From positions 4,898,001 through 4,962,000 of the forward strand of contig NZ_CP028092.1 of assembly GCF_005491705.1 (NCBI RefSeq): a stretch of DNA of 64,000 nucleotides, in the 5' to 3' direction. The position numbers and the translations under genes were made by a program. The DNA is from Pontibacter sp. SGAir0037. Lineage in GTDB: Bacteria; Bacteroidota; Bacteroidia; Cytophagales; Hymenobacteraceae. Shown piece by piece: positions 1-46,211 of this stretch (position 1 is the first letter of the stretch; every line of letters starts with the position of its first letter). The notes below the pieces were generated by a model, which saw only the letters and a list, made by a program, of their open reading frames with translations, did no database searches and was not told the origin of the DNA.

Positions 1-797
1 AGATTTTTATTAAGAAGGTAATTATAGAGGTTAATGACCTTTTCCTTCTCACTAATTTCAGAATCTATTGCAACAGTTCTGTATTCAAGGTCACGTAACT
101 CTAACCGTAGAGCGAACAGCATTTGATTCTCATAAATTATTATTTGACTATACTTAGCGGTAAGTTGATCTATAAGGATAATTGCCTTAGAATATTCTTT
201 CCCGATTATGTGATCTACTATATCAGCTATACATTCTACGTCAGCATCTTTCTTCAAACGATTAGCCTGTAGCAATAGATCTTCTTCTTCATCCAATGCA
301 ATGAAATGCTTAACCACTTGCAAGCGTTTCAGAATGCTATTTACATTTGGGTTAGTTGCCTGGTTAGCACGAGAACCTGTAATGAGTTGAAACTGCTCAA
401 TAAATTTATGGGCTAAATCAAAATCATCATAAGTGATAACAATGTTCTCCATATTCAATGCCGAAGCTTTTCGTGTCCAGTTAAATGAGCCTGTTATGAG
501 GGTACGACCATCAATTACACAGAACTTATTGTGCATCAGACTACCTTCAAGAGCAAAGAACTTTCCTCCTGCATTAGTCAAACTATCAAAGTTAAGCCCA
601 TATTCCCCAAAATTTATTTCATCCTTGACTAATGCCAGACTCACTAATACTCCTTGTTTCTGCTTCTGTAACAATGCTTGAAGAAGTTCATAATCCGTAA
701 ACCAAGCTACTGCAACATAGATATGCTTCTTAGCTAATGCAATTTCATCCTTGATTTTGAATTTAATTCCGGAAAAATGCGCTTCTGTTAAAATCAT
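1..797 (-). CDS. Phospholipase D-like (HKD) domain protein, cut at the window start
   Basis: This is an open frame of 265 codons from an ATG at 797 that runs off the left edge, so the C-terminus is missing. One HKD motif is visible, HNKFCVIDG with H89, K91 and D96, followed by GSFNWT at about 103-108; this is the arrangement of single-HKD nuclease-type PLD proteins, which act as dimers. The visible C-terminal half is helical and charged and may be a coiled coil. Single-HKD proteins act as DNA/RNA nucleases or phosphodiesterases, often in defence or restriction settings. The neighbours (DUF262, HEPN, PD-(D/E)xK genes on the same strand) favour a nuclease role, but substrate and partners cannot be read from sequence. 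The gene is AT-rich like the rest of this block. Confidence 0.85.
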   Translation of the reverse strand, partial: MILTEAHFSGIKFKIKDEIALAKKHIYVAVAWFTDYELLQALLQKQKQGVLVSLALVKDEINFGEYGLNFDSLTNAGGKFFALEGSLMHNKFCVIDGRTLITGSFNWTRKASALNMENIVITYDDFDLAHKFIEQFQLITGSRANQATNPNVNSILKRLQVVKHFIALDEEEDLLLQANRLKKDADVECIADIVDHIIGKEYSKAIILIDQLTAKYSQIIIYENQMLFALRLELRDLEYRTVAIDSEISEKEKVINLYNYLLNKN

Positions 798-1130
798 TTA
801 GCTTATTATTTAAAAATCACAAGAATTAACACCTTATTTCTGAGACGGAGACACTGCTGCAAATCATTTCATACTTGGCACCCGATTGGCAACCAATAGC
901 AACATTAGATAACAAAAAACGATAATGGTAATTGGTAGGCCTAGGATGTAGAATAGTAAAGAAAATCTTCCTTGATTTTACTCCAGGTAAAGACGTTCTC
1001 TGTTATGAAACACAAGGTATTTCGAAACTGAGTACATGTCTGCCGAAACTAAGTTTGCAAAGACCCAGGAGCTTGCGGAAATTACTGTCCGCCTCATGTT
1101 TTACACCCATTGTTGGGCCTTCGTGTTTTT
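798..1130. other. Intergenic stretch with an attC-like half site
   Basis: No credible gene lies here. Just downstream (minus strand) of the HEPN gene, 1098-1118 reads on the plus strand as GTTTTACACCCATTGTTGGGC. It ends in a GTTRRRY-type core (1112-1118), as integron attC sites do. No matching second half was found toward the PLD gene, so if this is a recombination site it is partial or decayed. Confidence 0.35.
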
Positions 1131-1751
1131 TTATTTCTTAAAGGTTTCATTCTTTTCACTGTCCTCAACTCCAATCACGATATCTAACATCAAATTTTCT
1201 ACAAGAGAAACAAATTCTGTTAAATGATTCATATTGACGATTATAGAATTTTCACCATGAGCAATTTTGTTCCTAAAGAGTAAAAGCTTATTAAGTCCGT
1301 TGTTGTATTTGTCATCTATTTTAGGAATGCAAAAACGTTCTAGAACTTGATTCAAGACTTTTAGATTTACATTTGATTCAGTCGGGACGGTTGGAGTAAT
1401 AATGATTTTGTCTTGAAATAAGCTGTCTAATGATTGAACTAGCTTTATCTTTTTTTCGAAATTTACTCTCGGATTATTGAAGTCGCATTCCGAGTCCATT
1501 TGGTGTGTCAAAAGCGCATAGGAAATTTCAGCCCGACTAAGCGATAATGTATTTAGGTGGTTAGAATAAATTATAAAACAACTTTTCACAAAACCTTCCC
1601 AAATCGAGTAAATAGCTGGTATTGAATATTTAATATGCAACTCCTTATGATCGGGACTAAAGCTGTACCTAATCGGAATACTTTTTAAAGTAGCGAGTTC
1701 AAATGTTCTCCACTCAATATCAGCTAATATTTCTTGAACAAATGTTTTCAT
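1131..1751 (-). CDS. HEPN-domain protein (MAE_28990/MAE_18760-like)
   Basis: The protein is 206 aa from the ATG at 1751; a TTG 18 bases upstream would add six residues and overlap the upstream gene. Near the C-terminus it has FRNKIAHG, the RNxxxH signature of HEPN ribonucleases (R160, H165 in this numbering), in an all-helical context. It lies 10 bp downstream of the DUF262 gene on the same strand. HEPN proteins of this type often sit next to DUF262 proteins and are predicted RNases in toxin-antitoxin or abortive-infection modules. The motif supports RNase activity, and the pairing suggests the two products act together. Family assignment is from the motif and neighbourhood only. Confidence 0.72.
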   Translation of the reverse strand: MKTFVQEILADIEWRTFELATLKSIPIRYSFSPDHKELHIKYSIPAIYSIWEGFVKSCFIIYSNHLNTLSLSRAEISYALLTHQMDSECDFNNPRVNFEKKIKLVQSLDSLFQDKIIITPTVPTESNVNLKVLNQVLERFCIPKIDDKYNNGLNKLLLFRNKIAHGENSIIVNMNHLTEFVSLVENLMLDIVIGVEDSEKNETFKK

Positions 1752-1761
1752 AGAAAGTCTT

Positions 1762-2814
1762 TCAACCAAAAATTTCGTCTGCTACTTCAATTCGCTTTAA
1801 GATTCTTGATTTACTTGCAGAAGCCGAACCTGAGGCTTTCTTAAAGGATTGTGACTCCTTTAATTGATTTACTTTAGCAATTAACTCATCAGTTCGGAGA
1901 TCTTTATACTTTTGGTAATATTTGGTTATGCCAATAGAAACGCAATCATACAAACTTGTTGAGAACACATTGTTTGAACCCCTAAACACATCCCTTCCTA
2001 CTGGGTGTAGTAAGTTTATCATGTTTTCAAAGGAATTTTTCAAGTGGAAAATTCTCTCGTCATCTGAAACTGCCTTTTTCATATAATTTGTCATGTGCTG
2101 GGAAATGTTTTCAGACAACTCGTCCTGCCCATCTGTAAGTGAACAAAAACGTAAAACTAATTCATCCATGTAAAGCTGTTCTAACTGTCTTTCTGTAGGT
2201 TGAATTAATTGAACAAATTTGTCATTTTTAGCACAGTCTCTCAGGAAAATATTGAACTCTTTTGAAACGCCCCTAAAAATTGCATTTCTTATTTCTTGAT
2301 CTGTTAGTTCTGAGCCACCTGTATTCAATCGATTAAATAATTCGTAGCGCATATCAAATGCACTATTCCACTTAATAATTTCTATTCTACAAGTGGCTCT
2401 TTTGATATTTAATTGAAATTTTAATGGAAGATCTTTACATGCAAGGTGTTCCAATTCTTCAGTCAAATCACCTTTACACATGACCCAATTATTTTTGTCT
2501 TTTGTGTCCTTGAGAACCCCAAAGAATGAGAACACGGTCGAAATTCTTTGAAGACCATCAACAAGCTCCCATCTGCCATCTTCGTCTTCTGCAACAAAAA
2601 TTGGAGGAACTGGAATCCCAATTAAAATAGACTCAATAAACCTTGTTTTTTGATAAGTGTCCCACCTGAATAATCTTTGAAAGTCTGGGTCAATAATGAT
2701 TTCTGCTCGTTCATACATGCTCATTATTTCTCCAAAAGACATATCTAGTCTGTCAGTATTTAAACTATTTCTTGTTTTTTCTAGTCTTTTCTCAAGTTTT
2801 TCTATTTTATTCAT
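1762..2814 (-). CDS. DUF262 (GmrS/ParB-fold) domain protein
   Basis: The protein is 350 aa from the ATG at 2814; an in-frame TTG at 2829 is also possible. After a short charged N-terminus it has the DUF262 core: DPDFQR (about 42-47), then FIESILIGIPVPP and DGLQRISTV (about 86-94), which matches the DGQQR nucleotide-binding signature of the family. The later FNRLNTGG segment is also typical. DUF262 forms the NTPase half of GmrSD-type restriction enzymes that act on modified DNA. Here the HNH-like DUF1524 half is missing and an HEPN gene follows instead, so the effector is probably the HEPN RNase. Base composition is AT-rich, unlike the core genes right of the tRNA. Confidence 0.85.
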   Translation of the reverse strand: MNKIEKLEKRLEKTRNSLNTDRLDMSFGEIMSMYERAEIIIDPDFQRLFRWDTYQKTRFIESILIGIPVPPIFVAEDEDGRWELVDGLQRISTVFSFFGVLKDTKDKNNWVMCKGDLTEELEHLACKDLPLKFQLNIKRATCRIEIIKWNSAFDMRYELFNRLNTGGSELTDQEIRNAIFRGVSKEFNIFLRDCAKNDKFVQLIQPTERQLEQLYMDELVLRFCSLTDGQDELSENISQHMTNYMKKAVSDDERIFHLKNSFENMINLLHPVGRDVFRGSNNVFSTSLYDCVSIGITKYYQKYKDLRTDELIAKVNQLKESQSFKKASGSASASKSRILKRIEVADEIFG

Positions 2815-2840
2815 AATATTAGATATCAAATTTGCATGTG

Positions 2841-2970
2841 GCCCAACGAACTTAGCTATGTGTAGGGCGAAGGGTTAGCCAGTTAACTTTCCGCTTAGTG
2901 ATTTGTTTATTCGTTGTAACTACGTTCATATTAGCATTTTATCTCGCATTACGTATAGCCATTAATGGCG
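2841..2970 (-). repeat. attC-like imperfect inverted repeat between gene blocks
   Basis: This spacer separates the PD-(D/E)xK gene from DUF262. One end is GCCCAACGAACTTAGCTATG (2841-2860) and the other is CGCATTACGTATAGCCATTA (2945-2964). The inner segments AGCTATGTGTAG and the reverse complement of TACGTATAGCC can pair, giving an imperfect inverted repeat about 130 bp long with a GCCCAAC/GTTGGGC core at one side. This is the general layout of integron attC sites. The second core is degenerate (GCCATTA), so this is a resemblance, not a proof. Confidence 0.4.
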
Positions 2971-2978
2971 ACTGGCTT

Positions 2979-3515
2979 TTATTCAATCGTTCTGTTTATT
3001 GTCAGACGCATTATTTTCCTTTGTAGTAACTGAACCAAATCATCAGTAGTTTGAAAGGCTAAAATGTCTTCTCTTTTTATAATTAATATTCTAATATTAT
3101 CTCTCGTCAAAGCATTAATTATTTCACTATGTGCATTACTAACTCCATCAGCTGCACCTGTAATACCACTCAATGAAATTAAGATTCCAGTTGTTGCAAA
3201 TCTATCTTGTAACTTTCTTATAAACCAACCTACTTGAGCACTACTTACAGGAGATGCTGTATTCTTACATTCTGTTATTATAGCATAGTCCAAAAAATAT
3301 AAATCTGAATTTCTAGTATCATTATTAAAAATAACATCTAATTCGTGAGCTCTAACGCCATCAAGAACATTTGAGTCATAATGAGTTACTTTTGGCACTT
3401 TACAAAAAATGTAGCGAACTAATTCTTCAAGTTTAGCTCCTTTTACAGCGGTGTTTGGAGCGGTGTCTGACTCTCTTAATAATCGAGATATTTTTGGTTG
3501 AGAATATCTTGCCAT
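2979..3515 (-). CDS. PD-(D/E)xK nuclease-like protein
   Basis: The protein is 178 aa. It has the ordered signature of PD-(D/E)xK nucleases of the Mrr/resolvase kind: an early helix acid (E30/E31), D60 in HELDVIF, ECK at 82-84 in AIITECKN, and Q94 in the following helix. The start codon shares one base with the stop of the upstream TIR-like gene (TAATG), so the two are translationally coupled. Such small nucleases cleave DNA in restriction, repair or transposition. No specificity domain is visible, so targeting, if any, would come from the partner. It could also be a repair or resolvase-type enzyme, but the neighbourhood favours defence. Confidence 0.72.
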   Translation of the reverse strand: MARYSQPKISRLLRESDTAPNTAVKGAKLEELVRYIFCKVPKVTHYDSNVLDGVRAHELDVIFNNDTRNSDLYFLDYAIITECKNTASPVSSAQVGWFIRKLQDRFATTGILISLSGITGAADGVSNAHSEIINALTRDNIRILIIKREDILAFQTTDDLVQLLQRKIMRLTINRTIE

Positions 3516-4450
3516 TATTCAAGTCCGTGTGCTATTTTATTTCTTTGATTTAAAAGTAAGGCCTCAAATGAATTTTTTATTAATTCATTTACAAAGTCCT
3601 CTAAATCATAGCTTATTATTAAGGGGGCTAGTGAAGATTTTATTTTGGGTCTATTGTTATCTCTATCAATGTAGAGTAGAAGTCCAACTTTCGCATCTGA
3701 AATATTTATGTATCTTTTAATTTGATTTTCCGCATTTTCTAATCTACTTCTATCTAATCTGCCATATTTCAATTCTACTATTATTGGATTTCCTAGAACC
3801 TTCCCTAGGTTATCACTCCACAAAGCAAAGTCAATACCTTTGTCTTTATTTGTATTATTTTCGACATAATTAAGATTAATTATATCGAAAATTTTAGCCG
3901 TAATTTGTTCCATCCTAAACGCATTCCGAGCTGCATTTTGGTTATTGTTAATATCAAAGTTTCTTAAATCATTTATCTCTGGAAGAATTTGTTTTAACTG
4001 ACTTTTAATTTTATTTGAATATTCGGTTACTTTATCAAATCTGTCATTCTTTCTATGATATGATTGTTTCGGTTTCTTCTTTACATCTGAAAGTAACTTA
4101 ACAATAGAGTTACTGGTAAATTCCGAGTCGTTCAAGTCTGTTCTTATGAACAACTTGTTTTCTAAGTAAAATGGAATTTTTAAATTCTTATCTAATAAAA
4201 TGAAATGTTGTTTCCCTAAACCTTCACAGACACCCATTTCATAAATAACATTTGGATTGGTATCTGTAACAATAAAAATGGCAAAATCTGATTCTTTTAT
4301 TTTCTTCTTTAAAATTTGTTGAATAGAATCTCCAATTGAAAAATCGTATAGGTCAAAAGACTCAATACCATTCTCAGCAAGAATATTCTTAACTGAAGTT
4401 GTGTCAACATTGTGTGACGCGGATATGAAACATTTTAAATTTCTGTTCAT
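3515..4450 (-). CDS. TIR-like domain fused to a PD-(D/E)xK nuclease domain
   Basis: The protein is 311 aa and AT-rich. Residues 5-125 resemble the TIR/nucleoside deoxyribosyltransferase-like fold: a CFISAS first strand, SDFAIFIVTD, then NPNVIYEMG with a candidate catalytic glutamate E71. Residues 170-290 carry a nuclease signature: E181, D207 in GIDFALW, E226-L-K228 in VELKYG, and Q243. The last residues are RNKIAHGLE, the same heptad that forms the HEPN motif of the gene at 1131. TIR-like domains in defence proteins bind or consume nucleotides. Here the fusion suggests sensing at the N-terminus coupled to DNA cleavage, with the downstream nuclease as partner. This is inference; the pair is not one I can name. 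Confidence 0.65.
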   Translation of the reverse strand: MNRNLKCFISASHNVDTTSVKNILAENGIESFDLYDFSIGDSIQQILKKKIKESDFAIFIVTDTNPNVIYEMGVCEGLGKQHFILLDKNLKIPFYLENKLFIRTDLNDSEFTSNSIVKLLSDVKKKPKQSYHRKNDRFDKVTEYSNKIKSQLKQILPEINDLRNFDINNNQNAARNAFRMEQITAKIFDIINLNYVENNTNKDKGIDFALWSDNLGKVLGNPIIVELKYGRLDRSRLENAENQIKRYINISDAKVGLLLYIDRDNNRPKIKSSLAPLIISYDLEDFVNELIKNSFEALLLNQRNKIAHGLE

Positions 4451-4494
4451 TTATTTATATCAGCTTGCTGCCAACTATTGGATGTAAGGAGTTA

Positions 4495-4531
4495 TTCTGT
4501 TTATCCTCTCATAGAGGGAGGATAAACAGAA
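4495..4531. repeat. Perfect 14-bp inverted repeat in the divergent promoter region
   Basis: The arms 4495-4508 (TTCTGTTTATCCTC) and 4518-4531 are exact reverse complements around a 9-base loop. The repeat lies between the divergently transcribed TIR-like gene (minus) and the Xre antitoxin gene (plus). Beside it, 4469-4475 reads TGCCAAC, a possible attC-type core. It could be an operator, the hairpin of a recombination site, or a terminator; no T-run adjoins it. Confidence 0.6.
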
Positions 4532-4687: not shown

Positions 4688-5128
4688 ATGCTTATGTCAC
4701 TTGATTCGATAGTAGAAGTAATGGGCGGCCCCAAAAACATTGGGCGCGACATTCATAATACACATGATTTTATACTGGCCTCACGGGAAGGTATTTCCGT
4801 GGCTGTTATCAAGGTTCTCCAGAGCAGAATAGGTTTGACGAACAAAATGATGAGCAGTATTCTGGAGATCTCTGAGAGCACTCTACAGCGTCTTATTAAG
4901 CAAAAAAGCCGGCTAGGAAAGTCTGAGTCTGAGGCCGCCTACGAGATATCTAAAATCATTGCGAAAGGCATTGAAGTGTTTGGAGACGAACAGGACTTCA
5001 CAGAGTGGCTTAACACTAAGAATATCGCCTTGGGAGATGAAAGGCCAATCGACTGGTTGGACTCATCTATCGGCAGGGAGCAGTTGGTGGATTTATTGGT
5101 GGGTATTCAATACGGTCATTACTCCTAA
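4688..5128 (+). CDS. Xre/MbcA/ParS-type antitoxin (DUF2384)
   Basis: The protein is 146 aa from the ATG at 4688; TTG 4685 and ATG 4694 are alternatives. An N-terminal helix-turn-helix-like segment (LTNKMMSSILEISESTLQRL) is followed by the DUF2384 toxin-binding region with FGDEQDFTEWL and ALGDERPIDWL. The stop is 2 bp before the RES-domain gene, the standard order for Xre-RES pairs. Antitoxins of this family neutralise the RES toxin by binding its active site and repress their own promoter; the inverted repeat at 4495-4531 is a possible operator, though it is about 160 bp upstream. Base composition is closer to the core than to the AT-rich block on its left. Confidence 0.88.
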   Translation: MLMSLDSIVEVMGGPKNIGRDIHNTHDFILASREGISVAVIKVLQSRIGLTNKMMSSILEISESTLQRLIKQKSRLGKSESEAAYEISKIIAKGIEVFGDEQDFTEWLNTKNIALGDERPIDWLDSSIGREQLVDLLVGIQYGHYS

Positions 5129-5130
5129 GC

Positions 5131-5580
5131 ATGATTGTATATCGTTTAGCCAATCGGGACTTTATCGTGGACTTGGCTGGGACTGGAGGATTGTTCGGTT
5201 CGGGCAGGTGGCATGACAAAGGGATGCGAATATTATATACATCAGAAAGCTTCTCCTTGGCCAAACTAGAAGTGCTGGCCAATACAAAGTCCATTCCTAG
5301 GAATTATGCCCTAATCAAAATTGAGATTCCGGACGACCTGGAGCACAAGAGACTCACAGTAGAAGATCTTCCGGCTAACTGGAATATCTTTCCCCATCCG
5401 AAAGAGTTGAAGGTTTTTACAGAGGAGTGGATTAGGGAGAATAAGTATCTGGTCATGCAAGTGCCGTCTGTACATTCCCCTTATGAGAGTAATTACCTGA
5501 TCAACCCGATGCACCCGGATGCGGGGCGAATAAAGATAATAGAAAACAGGCCGCACGACTTTGATGCCCGCCTTAAGTAA
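5131..5580 (+). CDS. RES-domain toxin (NAD-degrading type)
   Basis: The protein is 149 aa. It shows the residues that name the RES family in order: R26 in GSGRWHDKG, Y36, E47 in SLAKLEV, and S113 in QVPSVHSP, followed by NYLINPMHPD. RES toxins deplete NAD+ (hydrolysis or phosphorolysis in characterised members) and cause growth arrest. All key residues are present and the length is normal, so the toxin looks functional. It follows its antitoxin by 2 bp and is surely co-transcribed. Such pairs occur in chromosomes and mobile elements; here the pair sits between a nuclease cluster and a RadC gene. Confidence 0.92.
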   Translation: MIVYRLANRDFIVDLAGTGGLFGSGRWHDKGMRILYTSESFSLAKLEVLANTKSIPRNYALIKIEIPDDLEHKRLTVEDLPANWNIFPHPKELKVFTEEWIRENKYLVMQVPSVHSPYESNYLINPMHPDAGRIKIIENRPHDFDARLK

Positions 5581-5712
5581 GGGAGTGGCAAAGGGAAAGA
5601 TACCTTAGCAAGGTCGTGTTCTTCCTAAGATTGGCGACACCTACTTTACATAATCTTACTTATTGGCTAGGACGAAAAAAAATGTTTATCTTATTCATTA
5701 ATGGTAATGAAT

Positions 5713-5735
5713 AAAAAAGGGCTACAAGAGCCCTT
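5713..5735 (-). terminator. Intrinsic terminator of radC
   Basis: On the minus strand AAGGGCT (5735-5729) pairs with AGCCCTT (5723-5717), followed by a T-run (A5713-5718 on plus). The hairpin overlaps the radC stop codon. Confidence 0.65.
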
Positions 5736-6192
5736 CATCTGCCATAGAGTAGTATGTCTCACTGGTGAGGATAATGTGATCCAGGACGACGATGTCGAGC
5801 AATTCTCCACCCTGCTTCATTTTCTTTGTCAGCTGTAGGTCTGCCGCACTTGGTTTGGTATTACCGGAGGGGTGGTTGTGGCAAAGGATGATGGAGGAGG
5901 CGCAGGCTTTGAGTGCCGCCGCGAAGATAAGCTTAGGATCAGCTATGGTGCCTGCGATACCTCCGGTGGAAAGTTCATAAATGCCCAGCACCCGATTGGC
6001 CCTGTTGAGTAGCATCACCTTGAACTGTTCTACAAATTCGATTTTGCCGGTGTCCCAGTTTTGACGGAGAACCTCTGCGCTGTCGGTGGAACTGGTCACC
6101 TGTGGGCGCTCGGACGGTTTTACTTTGGAGCGGTAGGTCAGTTTGATTTCTGCTACTTTGTTCATTCCGGTTTTTTTAGTTGGCTTTTCCAT
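5722..6192 (-). CDS. radC: RadC-like JAB/MPN domain protein
   Basis: The protein is 156 aa, shorter than chromosomal RadC (about 225 aa) because the N-terminal helix-hairpin-helix part is absent. The JAMM metal site is complete: E55, H105-N-H107-P-S-G, S115 and D118. Short RadC proteins of this type are frequent cargo of Bacteroidota conjugative elements and genomic islands. The biochemical role is unsettled; the JAMM fold suggests a metal-dependent hydrolase or nuclease. Its place on the island side of the tRNA-Arg gene, with a long G+C-richer leader upstream (6193-6400), fits a mobile-element origin. Confidence 0.88.
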   Translation of the reverse strand: MEKPTKKTGMNKVAEIKLTYRSKVKPSERPQVTSSTDSAEVLRQNWDTGKIEFVEQFKVMLLNRANRVLGIYELSTGGIAGTIADPKLIFAAALKACASSIILCHNHPSGNTKPSAADLQLTKKMKQGGELLDIVVLDHIILTSETYYSMADEGLL

Positions 6193-6835
6193 AATCTTGT
6201 TCTTTTAAGGTTTTAGGAATTGATTATGGTGCCTGCCCTGCCTGGCGAACGGACTAAGGGCAGGGTGGAGCCGAAGAAAATGCGGAGGGCTCCCTTTAGG
6301 GATACCCATTTTGTTCGGACTACCTTGTCCCGTGTCCGGGCGGCAGGCTAAATTGCGCCGGAATGAATGACCTCGGACTTTTATATTGGAGTGTCTTGAG
6401 GGGTGGTGTTTTTAGCTTCTTTTTAAACTATTTTGCTTCAGTCTAAAGATGGAGGAGGATACAGTCATCTTAAAACGAGTGAGTAAGAATAGAGTAGGAG
6501 CAAGGTTATTTGATGGCCTTAACTATTTTATCATTGATTTTTTAACTATAAAGACATTAAGAAAGTCTGTCCAGTTGCTAAAGCAAGAAACTTGACGTGT
6601 AGAGGCTTGTGAAAAAATGGGCTGGAAGGGTAAAAAAGCTCTCAGAGTATACACTTAGGAGGCTGTAGCGGGGAGCTCAAAGCTTTACTGAAAATTAATT
6701 GAAATAATAATAAGTCTAGCAATGTGGTTCGGAAGAAGGAAAGATGAAAAAAAGTTAAGTAGCTATGGAGAGAATTATTTGCAAGTAAGAAGTCGGCTGA
6801 ATAGCAAAAAGTTTGTGTGCAAATTGTGTGTACAT
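6193..6835. other. Non-coding stretch upstream of radC
   Basis: About 640 bp without a credible gene. 6225-6400 is G+C-richer and contains the inverted pair TGCCTGCCCTGCC / GGGCAGG. This resembles leaders before mobile-element genes in Bacteroidota, but I cannot assign a function. A frame running through 6642-6977 on the minus strand only translates the tRNA. Confidence 0.4.
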
Positions 6836-39072: not shown

Positions 39073-40362
39073 ATGAAATACACACCTATCGATCCTGCTT
39101 TGTTTGTTCAGAACCGCCGGAAGTTTTGCAAGCAGCTAAAGCCTTCATCCATTGCAGTTTTTCATTCGAATGATGTAATGCCTGCAAATGCTGATGCTAC
39201 CATGGCTTTTAAGCAAAATAACGACTTGTTTTATTTAACTGGGCTAGATCAGGAAGAAAGCATCCTGCTCATTTACCATGATGCGCGCGATCCCAGGATG
39301 AAGGAAGTATTGTTCATCAGGGAAACAAACGATCAGATTGCCAGATGGGAGGGATATAAATACACTAAAGAGCATGCCCAAAAAGTATCAGGAATAAGCA
39401 CCATATTTTGGACGCATGAGTTTGAGCAGGTATTAAATAGCCTGATACTGGAGGTGGAGCATGTTTATCTGAATACCAATGAGCACTTGCGGGCGGTTGT
39501 AGAAGTAGAAACACGGGACTCCCGGTTTATTAAATGGTGCCAGCAACGTTATCCGCTGCATAAATACGAACGAAACGCTCCTATAATGCATTACCTGCGG
39601 GCAATTAAGTCTGAATATGAAATAAATTTAATAAAGCAGGCTTGTGCTATTACAGGAAGGGGCTTTCGCAGGTTACTCCGTTTTATTAAGCCAGGAGTAA
39701 TGGAATACGAAATCGAGGCTGAGATATGGCACGAATTTCTGCGTAACCGTTCTACAGGGCCCGCTTATAGTTCCATTATTGCTTCAGGAGCAAATGCCTG
39801 TATTTTACACTACATTGATAACAATAAAGAATGTCAAGACGGCGACCTGCTCTTAATGGATTTTGGTGCTGAGTATGCCAATTATGCTTCGGATCTGACA
39901 CGGACGGTGCCTGTAAACGGTAAATTTTCAAAGCGGCAGCGCGATGTTTATGAAGCCGTTTTACGTGTAATGAAAGCTGCTACCCAGATGCTGGTACCGG
40001 GCAATACATTAGATCAGTATCATGCCTTTGTAGGAAGGGTGATGGAAAACGAGCTTATTCGCCTGGGCTTACTGAATGAAAGTGATGTACGTAACCAGGA
40101 TCCTGGTAAACCCCTGTACAAGAAGTATTTTATGCATGGCACCTCACACTTTCTAGGGCTTGATGTACACGATGTGGGAAACAAGTACAGGCCATTTGAA
40201 GAAGGAATGGTATTTACCTGTGAACCTGGTATCTATATTCCGGAAGAGGGAATGGGAGTACGACTGGAGAATGATATTCTAATTACTAAAAGCGGTCCGG
40301 AAGATTTGATGAAAGAGATACCGCTCGAAGCAGATGAAATAGAAAGACTAATGGCCAGGTAA
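39073..40362 (+). CDS. pepP: Xaa-Pro aminopeptidase (M24B)
   Basis: The protein is 429 aa. The pita-bread catalytic domain has all five metal ligands: D263 in LLMDFGAEY, D274 in ASDLTRT, H359 in HGTSHFLG, E384 in CEPGIYI, and E399 in VRLENDILI. The N-terminal domain (to about 175) fits aminopeptidase P. It removes the N-terminal residue before proline; cytosolic, Mn-dependent in E. coli. A single-gene unit. Confidence 0.94.
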   Translation: MKYTPIDPALFVQNRRKFCKQLKPSSIAVFHSNDVMPANADATMAFKQNNDLFYLTGLDQEESILLIYHDARDPRMKEVLFIRETNDQIARWEGYKYTKEHAQKVSGISTIFWTHEFEQVLNSLILEVEHVYLNTNEHLRAVVEVETRDSRFIKWCQQRYPLHKYERNAPIMHYLRAIKSEYEINLIKQACAITGRGFRRLLRFIKPGVMEYEIEAEIWHEFLRNRSTGPAYSSIIASGANACILHYIDNNKECQDGDLLLMDFGAEYANYASDLTRTVPVNGKFSKRQRDVYEAVLRVMKAATQMLVPGNTLDQYHAFVGRVMENELIRLGLLNESDVRNQDPGKPLYKKYFMHGTSHFLGLDVHDVGNKYRPFEEGMVFTCEPGIYIPEEGMGVRLENDILITKSGPEDLMKEIPLEADEIERLMAR

Positions 40363-40599
40363 GAAAGCACGGGTATAGGTGCAAATTTGATGATTGGGTA
40401 ACCTTTCTTTTATAGTATTTCGTTTAAGCCAAACTAGATTTGAATTCGTCTTCATTTTTTGGATTAAAAAGAAATATTAACATGGAATATACCTTTTTGA
40501 AAATTAAGCCGTAGTGATATTACATTAGCTATTTAGAGTACAGTAAACTTAAATGAAAACTTTTAAATCCTATTTTGTATTGAGTATCAACTATTCATG

Positions 40600-40629
40600 T
40601 TTGCCAACTTCAAAATTAGAGTAAACTTG
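40600..40629 (+). promoter_or_regulatory. Candidate promoter of OmpA/TSP3 copy 1
   Basis: TTTG (40600-40603), 18-base spacer, TAAACTTG (40622-40629), close to TTTG / TAnnTTTG. A start near 40636 would give a leader of about 50 bases. The rest of the gap 40363-40684 is AT-rich with nothing else recognised. Confidence 0.5.
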
Positions 40630-40684
40630 AGAACCTAGGAATAGTGAGTACGTATTGTCATATCATAATATACCTATTAAAACT

Positions 40685-42166
40685 ATGCAGAAATTAGTTA
40701 CAAAGATACGAAAAGCAGCGTTAGCGCTAGGGTTCTTGCTTGCGGCAAGCCCTGGTCTCCTAGCTCAGACGTCGGACATGCCCTGGAACATCCAGGTGTA
40801 CGGCACGGCTCTGCAGCAGCACAACGAGATGATCAACCGTTGGTGGAAGTTTGACTGGAACGGCGGGGCCGGCCTGTCGCTGAACCGCTACATCAGCCCC
40901 TCTTTCGACGGCGGGCTTCACCTGGGCTATCAGGACATGCGCGCAGGTCAGCAGGGTGCAGGTAACTGGTACAGAGCCAATATGACTTCGGCCTCTCTTG
41001 GCCTGAGGCTGAAGATGTACGGCACGATCCTCAAGGAGGACGCCTTCATCGGGCCTTACCTGTCGGGTACGATCGGCGCCGGCTTCGGCAGCACGGAGGG
41101 TTCCACCACGGCCTACGCCAACAACCCTGTTGGTCCGTTCGACAAGAACTACAGCGCGCTTCTGGGCTCGCTCGGCGGCGGTATCCGCCTTCGCTTCTCG
41201 GACCGCATCAGCGGCTTTGTGCAGTCGAGCTTCATGTTCGACCTGAACGACGGCATCGACGGTCGCGAGGTTGACGGCGGCTGGGACAAGTACCTGCAGC
41301 ACAACGTGGGCCTGGGCTTCAACCTGGGATCTGCGACCGACACGGACGGGGACGGCGTTCCTGACAGAAGGGACGAGTGCCCTGACACGCCGACGGGCGT
41401 TCAGGTGGACCGCAAGGGCTGCCCGATCGACACGGACGGGGACGGTGTTCCGGACTATCAGGACCAGTGCCCGACAGAGGCCGGACCTGCCTCTACGCAA
41501 GGCTGCCCTGACGGCGACGGCGACGGCGTGGCCGACAAGGACGACCGCTGCCCGACAGAGCCAGGCACTGCCGCTCTTCAGGGCTGCCCTGACTCAGACG
41601 GCGACGGGGTTGCCGACATCGACGACCAGTGCCCAGACACGCCTGCCGGCGTTCAGGTGGACGCGCAGGGTTGCCCGATCGACACGGACGGGGACGGCAT
41701 TGCCGACCACGAGGACCTGTGCCCTAACTCAGCGGGCCCTGCCGAGAACAAAGGCTGCCCTCAGCTGGACGAGCGCACGCTGCGCCTGATGGAGGAGAAG
41801 GTTCGCTTCGAGTTCGACCAGGCCCGGGTGCAGGACGGCTACCGTCAGCTGCTCGACAGCATCGTTGTGGCGCTGGAGCGCTACCCGGACCACGTGCTGC
41901 TGATCAAGGGTCACGCCGACCACATCGGCTCTGAGGAGTACAACCAGGCGCTTTCCGAGCGCAGGGCGCAGGCGGTGAAGGACTACCTGATCTCGAGAGG
42001 TGTTCAGAACCCGGACAGGCTGGTGACCAGAGGCTACGGCGAGAGCCAGCCGCTCGTGCAGGTGAACACGCGCCTGTCGAAGGCCAGAACGGCTGCGGCC
42101 CGTGCCCAGAACAGGAGGGTTGGCTTCCAGATGGACACGCCCGACATGAAGCTGGACATGGAGTAA
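40685..42166 (+). CDS. OmpA-family barrel protein with TSP3 repeats, copy 1
   Basis: The protein is 493 aa from ATG 40685; a TTG at 40655 would add ten poor residues, and the ATG gives the same length as copy 2. Signal peptide to about LLAQ (28); beta-barrel about 30-217; five calcium-binding TSP3 units of the type DTDGDGVPD about 218-359, each with a cysteine pair pattern; OmpA_C about 368-480 with GHADHIGSEEYN and NRRVGF. It would span the outer membrane and bind peptidoglycan, with the TSP3 stretch as a stiff linker. Codons end in G/C far more than in neighbours, as in highly expressed or acquired genes. From 40707 on it is identical to copy 2. Confidence 0.95.
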   Translation: MQKLVTKIRKAALALGFLLAASPGLLAQTSDMPWNIQVYGTALQQHNEMINRWWKFDWNGGAGLSLNRYISPSFDGGLHLGYQDMRAGQQGAGNWYRANMTSASLGLRLKMYGTILKEDAFIGPYLSGTIGAGFGSTEGSTTAYANNPVGPFDKNYSALLGSLGGGIRLRFSDRISGFVQSSFMFDLNDGIDGREVDGGWDKYLQHNVGLGFNLGSATDTDGDGVPDRRDECPDTPTGVQVDRKGCPIDTDGDGVPDYQDQCPTEAGPASTQGCPDGDGDGVADKDDRCPTEPGTAALQGCPDSDGDGVADIDDQCPDTPAGVQVDAQGCPIDTDGDGIADHEDLCPNSAGPAENKGCPQLDERTLRLMEEKVRFEFDQARVQDGYRQLLDSIVVALERYPDHVLLIKGHADHIGSEEYNQALSERRAQAVKDYLISRGVQNPDRLVTRGYGESQPLVQVNTRLSKARTAAARAQNRRVGFQMDTPDMKLDME

Positions 42167-42255
42167 GATAACAGAGGCCTGCCCGCAGGGGCGGGCCCTG
42201 CACCAAGGGGAGGCCCCCGCTCGAATGAGAGCGGGGGCCTCTTCCTTTTTTAGAG
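40707..42255 (+). repeat. Direct repeat, 1549 bp, copy 1
   Basis: From TACGAAAAGCAGCG (40707) to TAGAG (42255) the sequence matches 42595-44143 at a constant offset of 1888 bp. No difference was seen by eye, and the translations of both strands in several frames agree. It covers nearly the whole gene and its terminator but not the start codon or promoter. Confidence 0.95.
42210..42251 (+). terminator. Strong terminator of OmpA/TSP3 copy 1
   Basis: GAGGCCCCCGCTC (42210-42222) pairs exactly with 42229-42241, then a TTCCTTTTTT run. A second short G+C hairpin (42181-42196) precedes it. Confidence 0.93.
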
Positions 42256-42478
42256 GGCAAAGGAATGGCTAAGGGAGTTTGAAAAGAAAGTGAATAATAA
42301 GTAAATACTTACCTTCTGCACTGTCTGGTATTAGGTTTTTGAATACATATCTTGTATTTCTAATATTAAAATGCTTTTTTTGATCTAAGGGTAAAGAAGA
42401 GAGTACATACTCATTTAGAAGAAATGGTGGCGTAAAAACAATAAAATCAATGCAAACTACATGTATTTTCGTTTGAGG

Positions 42479-42510
42479 ATTGGCATTTTAAAAAAATGTC
42501 ACTAAACTTG
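42479..42510 (+). promoter_or_regulatory. Candidate promoter of OmpA/TSP3 copy 2
   Basis: ATTG (42479-42482), 20-base spacer, TAAACTTG (42503-42510). The -7 octamer is the same as upstream of copy 1, although the surrounding sequence is unrelated. The leader would be about 55-60 bases. The rest of the gap 42256-42572 shows nothing else recognisable. Confidence 0.5.
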
Positions 42511-42572
42511 CGTGAAAATATGTGAATATCTTCATATTGACATACTAGCTGAAGAATTATCAAATAATAATT

Positions 42573-44054
42573 ATGCGAACATACTTCACAAGATTACGAA
42601 AAGCAGCGTTAGCGCTAGGGTTCTTGCTTGCGGCAAGCCCTGGTCTCCTAGCTCAGACGTCGGACATGCCCTGGAACATCCAGGTGTACGGCACGGCTCT
42701 GCAGCAGCACAACGAGATGATCAACCGTTGGTGGAAGTTTGACTGGAACGGCGGGGCCGGCCTGTCGCTGAACCGCTACATCAGCCCCTCTTTCGACGGC
42801 GGGCTTCACCTGGGCTATCAGGACATGCGCGCAGGTCAGCAGGGTGCAGGTAACTGGTACAGAGCCAATATGACTTCGGCCTCTCTTGGCCTGAGGCTGA
42901 AGATGTACGGCACGATCCTCAAGGAGGACGCCTTCATCGGGCCTTACCTGTCGGGTACGATCGGCGCCGGCTTCGGCAGCACGGAGGGTTCCACCACGGC
43001 CTACGCCAACAACCCTGTTGGTCCGTTCGACAAGAACTACAGCGCGCTTCTGGGCTCGCTCGGCGGCGGTATCCGCCTTCGCTTCTCGGACCGCATCAGC
43101 GGCTTTGTGCAGTCGAGCTTCATGTTCGACCTGAACGACGGCATCGACGGTCGCGAGGTTGACGGCGGCTGGGACAAGTACCTGCAGCACAACGTGGGCC
43201 TGGGCTTCAACCTGGGATCTGCGACCGACACGGACGGGGACGGCGTTCCTGACAGAAGGGACGAGTGCCCTGACACGCCGACGGGCGTTCAGGTGGACCG
43301 CAAGGGCTGCCCGATCGACACGGACGGGGACGGTGTTCCGGACTATCAGGACCAGTGCCCGACAGAGGCCGGACCTGCCTCTACGCAAGGCTGCCCTGAC
43401 GGCGACGGCGACGGCGTGGCCGACAAGGACGACCGCTGCCCGACAGAGCCAGGCACTGCCGCTCTTCAGGGCTGCCCTGACTCAGACGGCGACGGGGTTG
43501 CCGACATCGACGACCAGTGCCCAGACACGCCTGCCGGCGTTCAGGTGGACGCGCAGGGTTGCCCGATCGACACGGACGGGGACGGCATTGCCGACCACGA
43601 GGACCTGTGCCCTAACTCAGCGGGCCCTGCCGAGAACAAAGGCTGCCCTCAGCTGGACGAGCGCACGCTGCGCCTGATGGAGGAGAAGGTTCGCTTCGAG
43701 TTCGACCAGGCCCGGGTGCAGGACGGCTACCGTCAGCTGCTCGACAGCATCGTTGTGGCGCTGGAGCGCTACCCGGACCACGTGCTGCTGATCAAGGGTC
43801 ACGCCGACCACATCGGCTCTGAGGAGTACAACCAGGCGCTTTCCGAGCGCAGGGCGCAGGCGGTGAAGGACTACCTGATCTCGAGAGGTGTTCAGAACCC
43901 GGACAGGCTGGTGACCAGAGGCTACGGCGAGAGCCAGCCGCTCGTGCAGGTGAACACGCGCCTGTCGAAGGCCAGAACGGCTGCGGCCCGTGCCCAGAAC
44001 AGGAGGGTTGGCTTCCAGATGGACACGCCCGACATGAAGCTGGACATGGAGTAA
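42573..44054 (+). CDS. OmpA-family barrel protein with TSP3 repeats, copy 2
   Basis: The protein is 493 aa. It differs from copy 1 only in the first eight residues (MRTYFTRL versus MQKLVTKI), before the shared RKAALALGF signal-peptide core; barrel, five TSP3 units and OmpA_C domain are the same. The gene therefore makes the same mature protein from its own promoter and start site. Having two apparently identical copies with strongly biased codons suggests a need for large amounts of this outer-membrane protein, or gene conversion between copies. An assembly artefact is unlikely, because upstream and downstream flanks of the copies differ. Confidence 0.95.
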   Translation: MRTYFTRLRKAALALGFLLAASPGLLAQTSDMPWNIQVYGTALQQHNEMINRWWKFDWNGGAGLSLNRYISPSFDGGLHLGYQDMRAGQQGAGNWYRANMTSASLGLRLKMYGTILKEDAFIGPYLSGTIGAGFGSTEGSTTAYANNPVGPFDKNYSALLGSLGGGIRLRFSDRISGFVQSSFMFDLNDGIDGREVDGGWDKYLQHNVGLGFNLGSATDTDGDGVPDRRDECPDTPTGVQVDRKGCPIDTDGDGVPDYQDQCPTEAGPASTQGCPDGDGDGVADKDDRCPTEPGTAALQGCPDSDGDGVADIDDQCPDTPAGVQVDAQGCPIDTDGDGIADHEDLCPNSAGPAENKGCPQLDERTLRLMEEKVRFEFDQARVQDGYRQLLDSIVVALERYPDHVLLIKGHADHIGSEEYNQALSERRAQAVKDYLISRGVQNPDRLVTRGYGESQPLVQVNTRLSKARTAAARAQNRRVGFQMDTPDMKLDME

Positions 44055-44143
44055 GATAACAGAGGCCTGCCCGCAGGGGCGGGCCCTGCACCAAGGGGAG
44101 GCCCCCGCTCGAATGAGAGCGGGGGCCTCTTCCTTTTTTAGAG
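42595..44143 (+). repeat. Direct repeat, 1549 bp, copy 2
   Basis: Second copy of 40707-42255. Unique sequence of 339 bp (42256-42594) separates the two. Homologous recombination between them would delete one gene. Confidence 0.95.
44098..44139 (+). terminator. Strong terminator of OmpA/TSP3 copy 2
   Basis: Same hairpin and T-run as at 42210-42251. Confidence 0.93.
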
Positions 44144-45281: not shown

Positions 45282-46211
45282 TCAAATCTTATTTTTAGAC
45301 GCCAAAAGATACAAGACAGCCATTCTGATGGCTACTCCGTTCTCCACCTGGTTTAATATGATGGAGTGATGGGAATCTGCAGCATCACTGCTTAGCTCTA
45401 CTCCCCGGTTTATCGGGCCTGGGTGCATAATTGTGATCTGCTTATCCAGCTTGTCGAGCATTTTCTTATTAATGCCGTAGTACAAGGTATACTCTCTCAG
45501 GGAAGGGAAATATTTCATTTGCTGCCTTTCCAGCTGGATGCGGAGCACATTGGCTACATCGCACCAGGCAAGAGCTTTATTTATATCCAGCTCTACTTTT
45601 ACTCCCAGTTCCTTTATGTATTTAGGTAGCAGAGTAGAAGGCCCACATACCATTACTTCTGCACCTTGCTTTTGCAAAGCGAAAATGTTAGATAAAGCAA
45701 CCCGTGAATGAAGGATGTCACCAACAATCACGATTTTCTTGCCTGCCACTTCGCCATACTTTTCTCTTATAGAAAATGAGTCCAGTAGAGCCTGCGTAGG
45801 GTGTTCATGCGTGCCATCTCCGGCATTTACAATATTGGCTTTGATATGCCTCGACAAAAAGTGAGGTGCTCCCGGGCTTGAATGGCGCATCACAATCATA
45901 TCTACCTTCATGGCCAGAATGTTATTCACAGTGTCCAGAAGTGTCTCTCCCTTTTTAACGGAGCTGCCACTGCTGGAAAAGTTAATCACATCTGCAGAAA
46001 GTCTTTTCTCGGCTAGCTCAAAAGAAAGGCGGGTGCGGGTGGAGTTCTCGAAAAAGACATTGGCAATCGTAATGTCGCGTAGCGAAGGAACTTTCTTAAT
46101 TGGGCGGTTCAGTACATCTTTGAAATTATCAGCGGTTTCAAAAATGAGCTGAATATCTTGTTTGGTAATATCTTTAATGCCTAACAGGTGCCTCACGCTG
46201 AGCTCTTGCAT
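45282..46211 (-). CDS. pyrB: Aspartate carbamoyltransferase catalytic subunit
   Basis: The protein is 309 aa, full length. The carbamoyl-phosphate site STRTR is at 57-61 and the aspartate-side HPGPINRGVE is present near the C-terminus. It makes carbamoyl aspartate, the first committed pyrimidine step. No pyrI regulatory gene is adjacent. It starts 7 bp after pyrR in one operon. Confidence 0.96.
   Translation of the reverse strand: MQELSVRHLLGIKDITKQDIQLIFETADNFKDVLNRPIKKVPSLRDITIANVFFENSTRTRLSFELAEKRLSADVINFSSSGSSVKKGETLLDTVNNILAMKVDMIVMRHSSPGAPHFLSRHIKANIVNAGDGTHEHPTQALLDSFSIREKYGEVAGKKIVIVGDILHSRVALSNIFALQKQGAEVMVCGPSTLLPKYIKELGVKVELDINKALAWCDVANVLRIQLERQQMKYFPSLREYTLYYGINKKMLDKLDKQITIMHPGPINRGVELSSDAADSHHSIILNQVENGVAIRMAVLYLLASKNKI

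Follow-up and report, generated by a model that had tools for sequence, protein, structure and literature searches.

A pair of ompA genes with an identical tract of extreme base composition

Within a 64,000-nt stretch of the Pontibacter sp. SGAir0037 genome (5.38 Mb in 2 contigs), referred to here as the window, two neighboring ompA genes share an identical, GC-rich tract and probably represent an old tandem pair under concerted evolution by GC-biased gene conversion (gBGC). Base-by-base comparison showed that positions 40707–42255 and 42595–44143 match at 1549 of 1549 bases with an offset of 1888 bp, in agreement with a preliminary description of this DNA. When the 5.38-Mb genome was searched, the 1549-bp block was found at exactly these two places, and a third copy was absent. 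Each block spans the region from signal-peptide codon 8 through the stop codon to a strong intrinsic terminator (16-pair stem, −62.9 kcal/mol, z −6.5), and both open reading frames (ORFs) encode 493 amino acids and carry OmpA (PF00691) and TSP3 (PF02412) domains. The earlier statements that two complete genes are repeated together with their terminators, and that the repeat starts inside the signal-peptide codons, were thereby borne out; the two ORFs differ only within codons 2–8. As each copy has flanks of its own, the second is not readily explained as an assembly artifact. On the N-terminal side of the TSP3 repeats and the C-terminal OmpA domain, the protein is predicted to have a signal peptide and a β-barrel. 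Residues 218–462 match PDB chain 5wtl_A (E 1.9e-63); compared with the OmpA-family protein of entry 5wtl, to which it is alike over these residues, the protein is ordinary, and its evolution alone is unusual.

The most informative feature of the block, its extreme GC content, was absent from the preliminary description. The tract has 64% GC and a third-codon-position GC (GC3) of 0.81, while 1.28 Mb sampled from the host genome has 45% GC and a mean ORF GC3 of 0.48 (standard deviation 0.08). The sequence on either side of the tract is 28–30% GC, and in bins across copy 1 of the tract, GC climbs at the left border from 0.28 to 0.58 and drops to 0.30 past the right one. Nearly all Pontibacter genomes examined have a single ompA in the order pepP–ompA–pyrB, and the GC content of ompA is 45–56% in 45 single-copy relatives, mostly at this same locus. 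At the single-copy loci where both neighbors were measured, ompA GC3 was always 0.10–0.28 below the pepP/pyrB mean; in the window it was 0.36 above that mean. At fourfold-degenerate sites of the C-terminal part, GC was 0.731 in the window as compared to 0.307 ± 0.096 (maximum 0.535) at the 45 single-copy loci, and the residual of a regression on the neighboring genes gave z = 9.3 for this part and z = 6.4 for the barrel. The shift is not limited to coding sequence, since the 95–100 bases 3′ of the stop codon have a GC of about 0.65 in the window and 0.34–0.52 in single-copy orthologues.

The direction of change was read from departures at columns on which at least 85% of the single-copy genes agree, i.e., by reference to living relatives. 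In the TSP3 and OmpA regions of the window gene, 32 departures led from A/T to G/C (W>S) and 5 from G/C to A/T (S>W), whereas all the single-copy genes summed gave 200 W>S and 332 S>W departures. The W>S bias in these regions was shared by codon positions 1 and 2. Synonymous (fourfold) sites, the non-coding terminator and first and second codon positions of the TSP3 and OmpA regions are thus all shifted, as expected of gBGC. The shift also runs against codon preference, because the ribosomal-protein region of the host genome has a GC3 of 0.32, i.e., A/T-ending codons, so that codon optimality offers no explanation. Within the window ompA (40685–42166), valine is encoded only by GTT and GTG, without GTC or GTA, and threonine mostly by ACG; this codon choice hints at a sequence-context dependence of the bias.

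The pair is older than its identity suggests

The preliminary description had called the pair a tandem duplication. Two adjoining copies are indeed present, but the arrangement is not a pristine head-to-tail one, because an unrelated spacer of 339 bp separates them. A simple tandem duplication gives a repeat length equal to the offset, so the spacer argues against a fresh duplication. As had also been claimed, the surroundings differ: alignment of the two upstream regions scored 22 as compared to a shuffled mean of 21.6, which is chance level, and the two downstream regions scored 28, no better than shuffled sequence (maximum 41). By contrast, the region upstream of copy 1 aligned with the upstream regions of single-copy orthologues at scores of 41–65 (shuffled maxima 28–34), with a common element around ACGTATTGTCATATCA, whereas the region upstream of copy 2 aligned with them at or near chance level. 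An element of the form ACGTATTG(T/A)CATATCA..ATATA, at 40640–40684, is conserved 5′ of ompA across Pontibacter and in the window precedes copy 1 only; it is likely a strong promoter. Since copy 1 alone has the orthologous promoter, it occupies the ancestral place. Combined with the unrelated spacer and flanks, this indicates that the pair is old and that the 1549-bp tract has been held identical by gene conversion.

A second, independent pair shows both states within one gene

The genome G047 (locus L104) is the only other Pontibacter in the set with a full-length tandem pair at this position. Its two β-barrel halves are of ordinary composition (z 0.9 and −0.2) and have a nucleotide identity of 54%. 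From the barrel end to the stop codon its copies are 98% identical, with a GC3 of about 0.9 and a fourfold-site GC of 0.86 and 0.85; the similarity between copies extends into the terminator. The 54% identity of the barrels indicates that this pair, too, is old. In its copy 1, departures in the TSP3 and OmpA regions numbered 35 W>S and 13 S>W. For the window and G047 together, the fourfold-site GC residuals of the C-terminal part reached z 8–9 after correction for neighboring genes, and the GC of the non-coding 95 nt on the 3′ side was 0.65/0.63/0.53, as compared to 0.43 ± 0.04.

A change point in identity between the G047 copies was located at aligned codon 214 (support interval 214–215; log-likelihood gain 158), and change points in GC3 at codons 214 (206–218; gain 40) and 213 (212–219; gain 50). 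Among 42 single-copy control genes the highest gain was 6.7, and the control change points lay at other positions. Since the identity and GC3 breakpoints coincide, the composition step tracks the limit of paralogue identity within a single ORF, and the GC shift is confined to the homogenized part. G047 is a natural experiment in which recombining and non-recombining halves stand within one gene, and GC is higher in frequently recombining sequence than in its counterparts that recombine less often. A relative with diverged copies, which the preliminary description had named as evidence against its reading, is half realized here: the barrel has diverged and the remainder is homogenized, a combination that supports conversion rather than refuting it.

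To place the two pairs, we used a species tree of pepP and pyrB, which joined the window genome with L036 (P. silvestris) at 99% support and put G047 elsewhere. The C-terminal tracts of the window and G047 have 76% protein identity, and each is nearer to single-copy Pontibacter proteins (up to 86% for the window and 81% for G047) than to the other. Taken with the separate tree positions, the 76% identity indicates that the two are independent cases, i.e., that the process has operated in a second lineage. The hallmarks of concerted evolution are found in both: the paralogues of the window are 100% identical to each other and at most 71% identical to orthologues, the 3′ halves of G047 are 98% identical between copies, and sharp tract borders occur in pairs that are old elsewhere, as unrelated flanks in the window and as a mid-ORF border in G047.

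Alternative explanations

The same tract-limited pattern would be produced by recombination-associated mutagenesis, in which the DNA synthesis of conversion is itself G:C-biased and mismatch resolution is unbiased. To our knowledge, no bacterial repair polymerase changes A:T to G:C with a bias of this strength, and we regard this explanation as improbable. We infer that the bias acts in the resolution of recombination intermediates and not in mutation during recombination synthesis.

It is likewise rather unlikely that a GC-rich tract entered by horizontal transfer, with a high-GC relative as the donor, before being copied to the adjoining paralogue. The block is a compositional outlier, and the host genome does have foreign-looking islands of high GC3 (L196 and L147). 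However, the protein is 63–71% identical to Pontibacter proteins and at most 52% identical to those of any other genus, its C-terminal part reaches 86% amino acid identity with single-copy Pontibacter, and the locus keeps its syntenic place between pepP and pyrB; neither closest relatives outside the genus nor broken synteny, the marks of a horizontally acquired island, were found. All other Pontibacter ompA genes outside G047 have a GC of at most 0.56. Searches at the genus and family level, in 84,980 species genomes and among plasmids and phages turned up no high-GC donor, and the plasmids and phages yielded no close match to the tract. Import would also have to account for a G047 tract that ends mid-ORF exactly where paralogue identity ends, and two unrelated species would each require a private donor.

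The preliminary description had left a choice between a very recent event and active gene conversion. That the identity merely reflects youth, with a very recent simple tandem duplication and an unrelated cause of the composition, is favored by the 0 differences over 1549 bp, and we nevertheless consider it very unlikely: the repeat length of 1549 is unequal to the offset of 1888, the spacer and flanks are unrelated, codons 2–8 have diverged, the GC shift requires far longer than zero differences imply, and the old G047 pair shows the same process. The flanks, the promoter, G047 and the reshaped composition all speak for conversion of an old pair. Finally, OmpA-type proteins are often abundant, as would suit codon-usage or mRNA selection on a highly expressed major outer-membrane protein that lifted GC after duplication, but this has hardly any likelihood considering that the ribosomal-protein region prefers A/T-ending codons, that single-copy ompA GC3 lies below that of its neighbors wherever both are comparable, that the shift extends to the terminator and to conserved codon positions 1 and 2, and that it spares half of the gene in G047.

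Other multicopy DNA and the weight of the evidence

We analyzed other repeated DNA for a comparable signal. The six ribosomal RNA (rRNA) operons of the window genome each have 536–848 bp of upstream DNA in common with other copies. The shared part has a GC of 0.54–0.58 and the adjoining unique part 0.37–0.44, with a border whose distance varies by copy. The step was clear in G000, G001, G029 and G192 but not in G002, G136 and G097. We take this contrast as supporting, not decisive, evidence for GC-biased gene conversion. In the 1.28-Mb sample of the window genome, ompA was the only homogenized tandem pair, the other long repeats being rRNA and a 2.9-kb reverse-transcriptase element, and about 1.5 Mb of examined loci contained no further homogenized tandem pair except that of G047.

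Several observations weigh against the explanation by GC-biased conversion. G047 is a draft assembly. In the window barrel, codon positions 1 and 2 lack the W>S bias (15 vs 21), and this barrel is divergent and of uncertain placement in trees. The signal is confined to two tandem loci. Old Hymenobacter-like tandem pairs, at loci of 54–61% GC and with copies that are not homogenized, show no GC step. Around the rRNA operons of G002, G136 and G097 the step is weak or absent, and differences between coding and non-coding DNA may contribute to the rRNA contrast.

Tandem pairs in the Hymenobacter-like genomes and in G201 (L119–L124 and L127) were considered as further cases and rejected; they are old and 45–90% identical in stretches, and a homogenized tract and a GC step are absent. 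The OmpA pairs at the pepP locus of L119–L124 (genus g4, Hymenobacter-like) form a reverse mosaic, with barrels 70–90% and C-terminal halves about 50% identical. In L108 (G034), a single ompA follows pepP at 4891–6291, with a strongly divergent barrel and a conserved OmpA domain, which suggests either replacement of the barrel or loss of one copy from a former pair.

A model for the ompA pair and its relation to known systems

In the mechanism that we propose, the tandem copies would form heteroduplex DNA by RecA-type homologous recombination, and repeated non-reciprocal exchange (gene conversion) would hold the copies identical. Mismatches in the heteroduplex would be resolved, or intermediates chosen, toward G:C more often than toward A:T, and repetition would push the exchanging tract alone to very high GC, both at synonymous and non-synonymous sites and in the terminator. 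The process would run until divergence outside the tract blocks further exchange. The non-homologous flanks, including both promoters and codons 1–7, could not convert and would remain AT-rich and different. The zero differences in 1549 bp suggest that exchange is still active. As for the agent of bacterial gBGC, mismatch repair has been put forward as a suggestion only (PMC4450053).

Among eukaryotic duplicates, an established case of GC-biased conversion is that of the palindromes of primate X chromosomes (PMC8981503), where near-identical paralogous arms have a GC above that of single-copy flanks, credited to GC-biased conversion. Unlike those palindromes, the case described here is a single-gene tandem pair in a bacterium without meiosis, and the step is very large, with fourfold-site GC going from about 0.31 in single copies to 0.73–0.86. 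Whether recombination raises GC in bacteria is disputed. Lassalle et al. (2015) proposed bacterial gBGC on the basis of genome-wide data, arguing that recombination raises GC, and suggested mismatch repair as the agent (PMC4450053); the words paralog and ectopic are absent from that paper, whereas in our case recombining and non-recombining parts share one gene. By contrast, GC-biased conversion in bacteria has been denied as unobserved (PMC8153448), and PMC8223754 cites a report of an AT bias (Bobay and Ochman 2017). Intragenomic conversion also homogenizes the rRNA operons of E. coli (PMC8022953), but there the term biased gene conversion occurs in the reference list only, and here a strong compositional shift accompanies homogenization. 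An earlier bacterial case in which a homogenized tract within a gene is compared to that gene's own unconverted part was not found in text searches of open-licence papers, which does not prove priority.

The controls available here are single-copy relatives that share the conserved locus and, for one species, the unconverted half of the gene itself. They set gene conversion apart from mutation, transfer and codon selection, and point to a tractable laboratory assay. It is an evenly balanced question whether gBGC is strong and general on multicopy DNA in Pontibacter, and perhaps in many bacteria, overriding codon selection, altering amino acids and being measurable at tandem duplicates. If it is general, high GC alone is no evidence of horizontal transfer.

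Other features of the locus and the genome

Table 1. Features of the pepP–ompA–pyrB locus in the window.
Feature	Position	Strand	Remarks
pepP (Xaa-Pro aminopeptidase)	39073..40362	+	conserved left neighbor; GC3 0.42
Promoter region of copy 1	40363..40684	+	GC 0.28; resembles upstream regions of single-copy orthologues
ompA copy 1, 493 aa	40685..42166	+	predicted signal peptide, β-barrel, TSP3 and OmpA C-terminal domain; ancestral position directly after pepP; GC 0.64, GC3 0.81
Homogenized tract, copy 1	40707..42255	+	1549 bp; GC 0.644; codon 8 to beyond terminator
Intrinsic terminator of copy 1	42207..42244	+	within tract
Promoter region of copy 2	42256..42572	+	GC 0.29; unrelated to that of copy 1
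ompA copy 2, 493 aa	42573..44054	+	unlike copy 1 only within codons 2–8
Homogenized tract, copy 2	42595..44143	+	100% identical to tract copy 1
Intrinsic terminator of copy 2	44095..44132	+	same as that of copy 1
Third tandem paralogue, barrel only, 244 aa	44459..45193	+	GC3 0.43; 39% identity; not homogenized; internal control
pyrB (aspartate carbamoyltransferase, assigned from sequence)	45282..46211	−	conserved right neighbor; GC3 0.48

Elsewhere in the genome, the reverse-transcriptase-bearing element of 2.9 kb is present in two copies with 100% identity (L133:864–3766 and L218:17098–20000) and is mobile and group II intron-like. The integrase gene of L147 (GC3 0.82) was considered as a conversion case and judged to be a mobile-element gene, with one full-length copy and partial relatives of 68–84%. 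A cluster with a GC3 of 0.69–0.79 at L196:5600–17640 (C1:1990600–2002640), with a peptidase-type ABC transporter and with a long ORF that by eye resembles a lanthipeptide dehydratase, was probably acquired. Positions 1–4500 of the window are AT-rich (GC 0.31–0.35, ORF GC3 0.17–0.31), unlike the rest of the window, and are possibly an acquired island. Positions 5713–6398 are 77% identical to DNA adjoining a GC-rich tyrosine recombinase gene (L147:3864–4550; C1:5043863–5044549), indicating that a related mobile element is probably present there.

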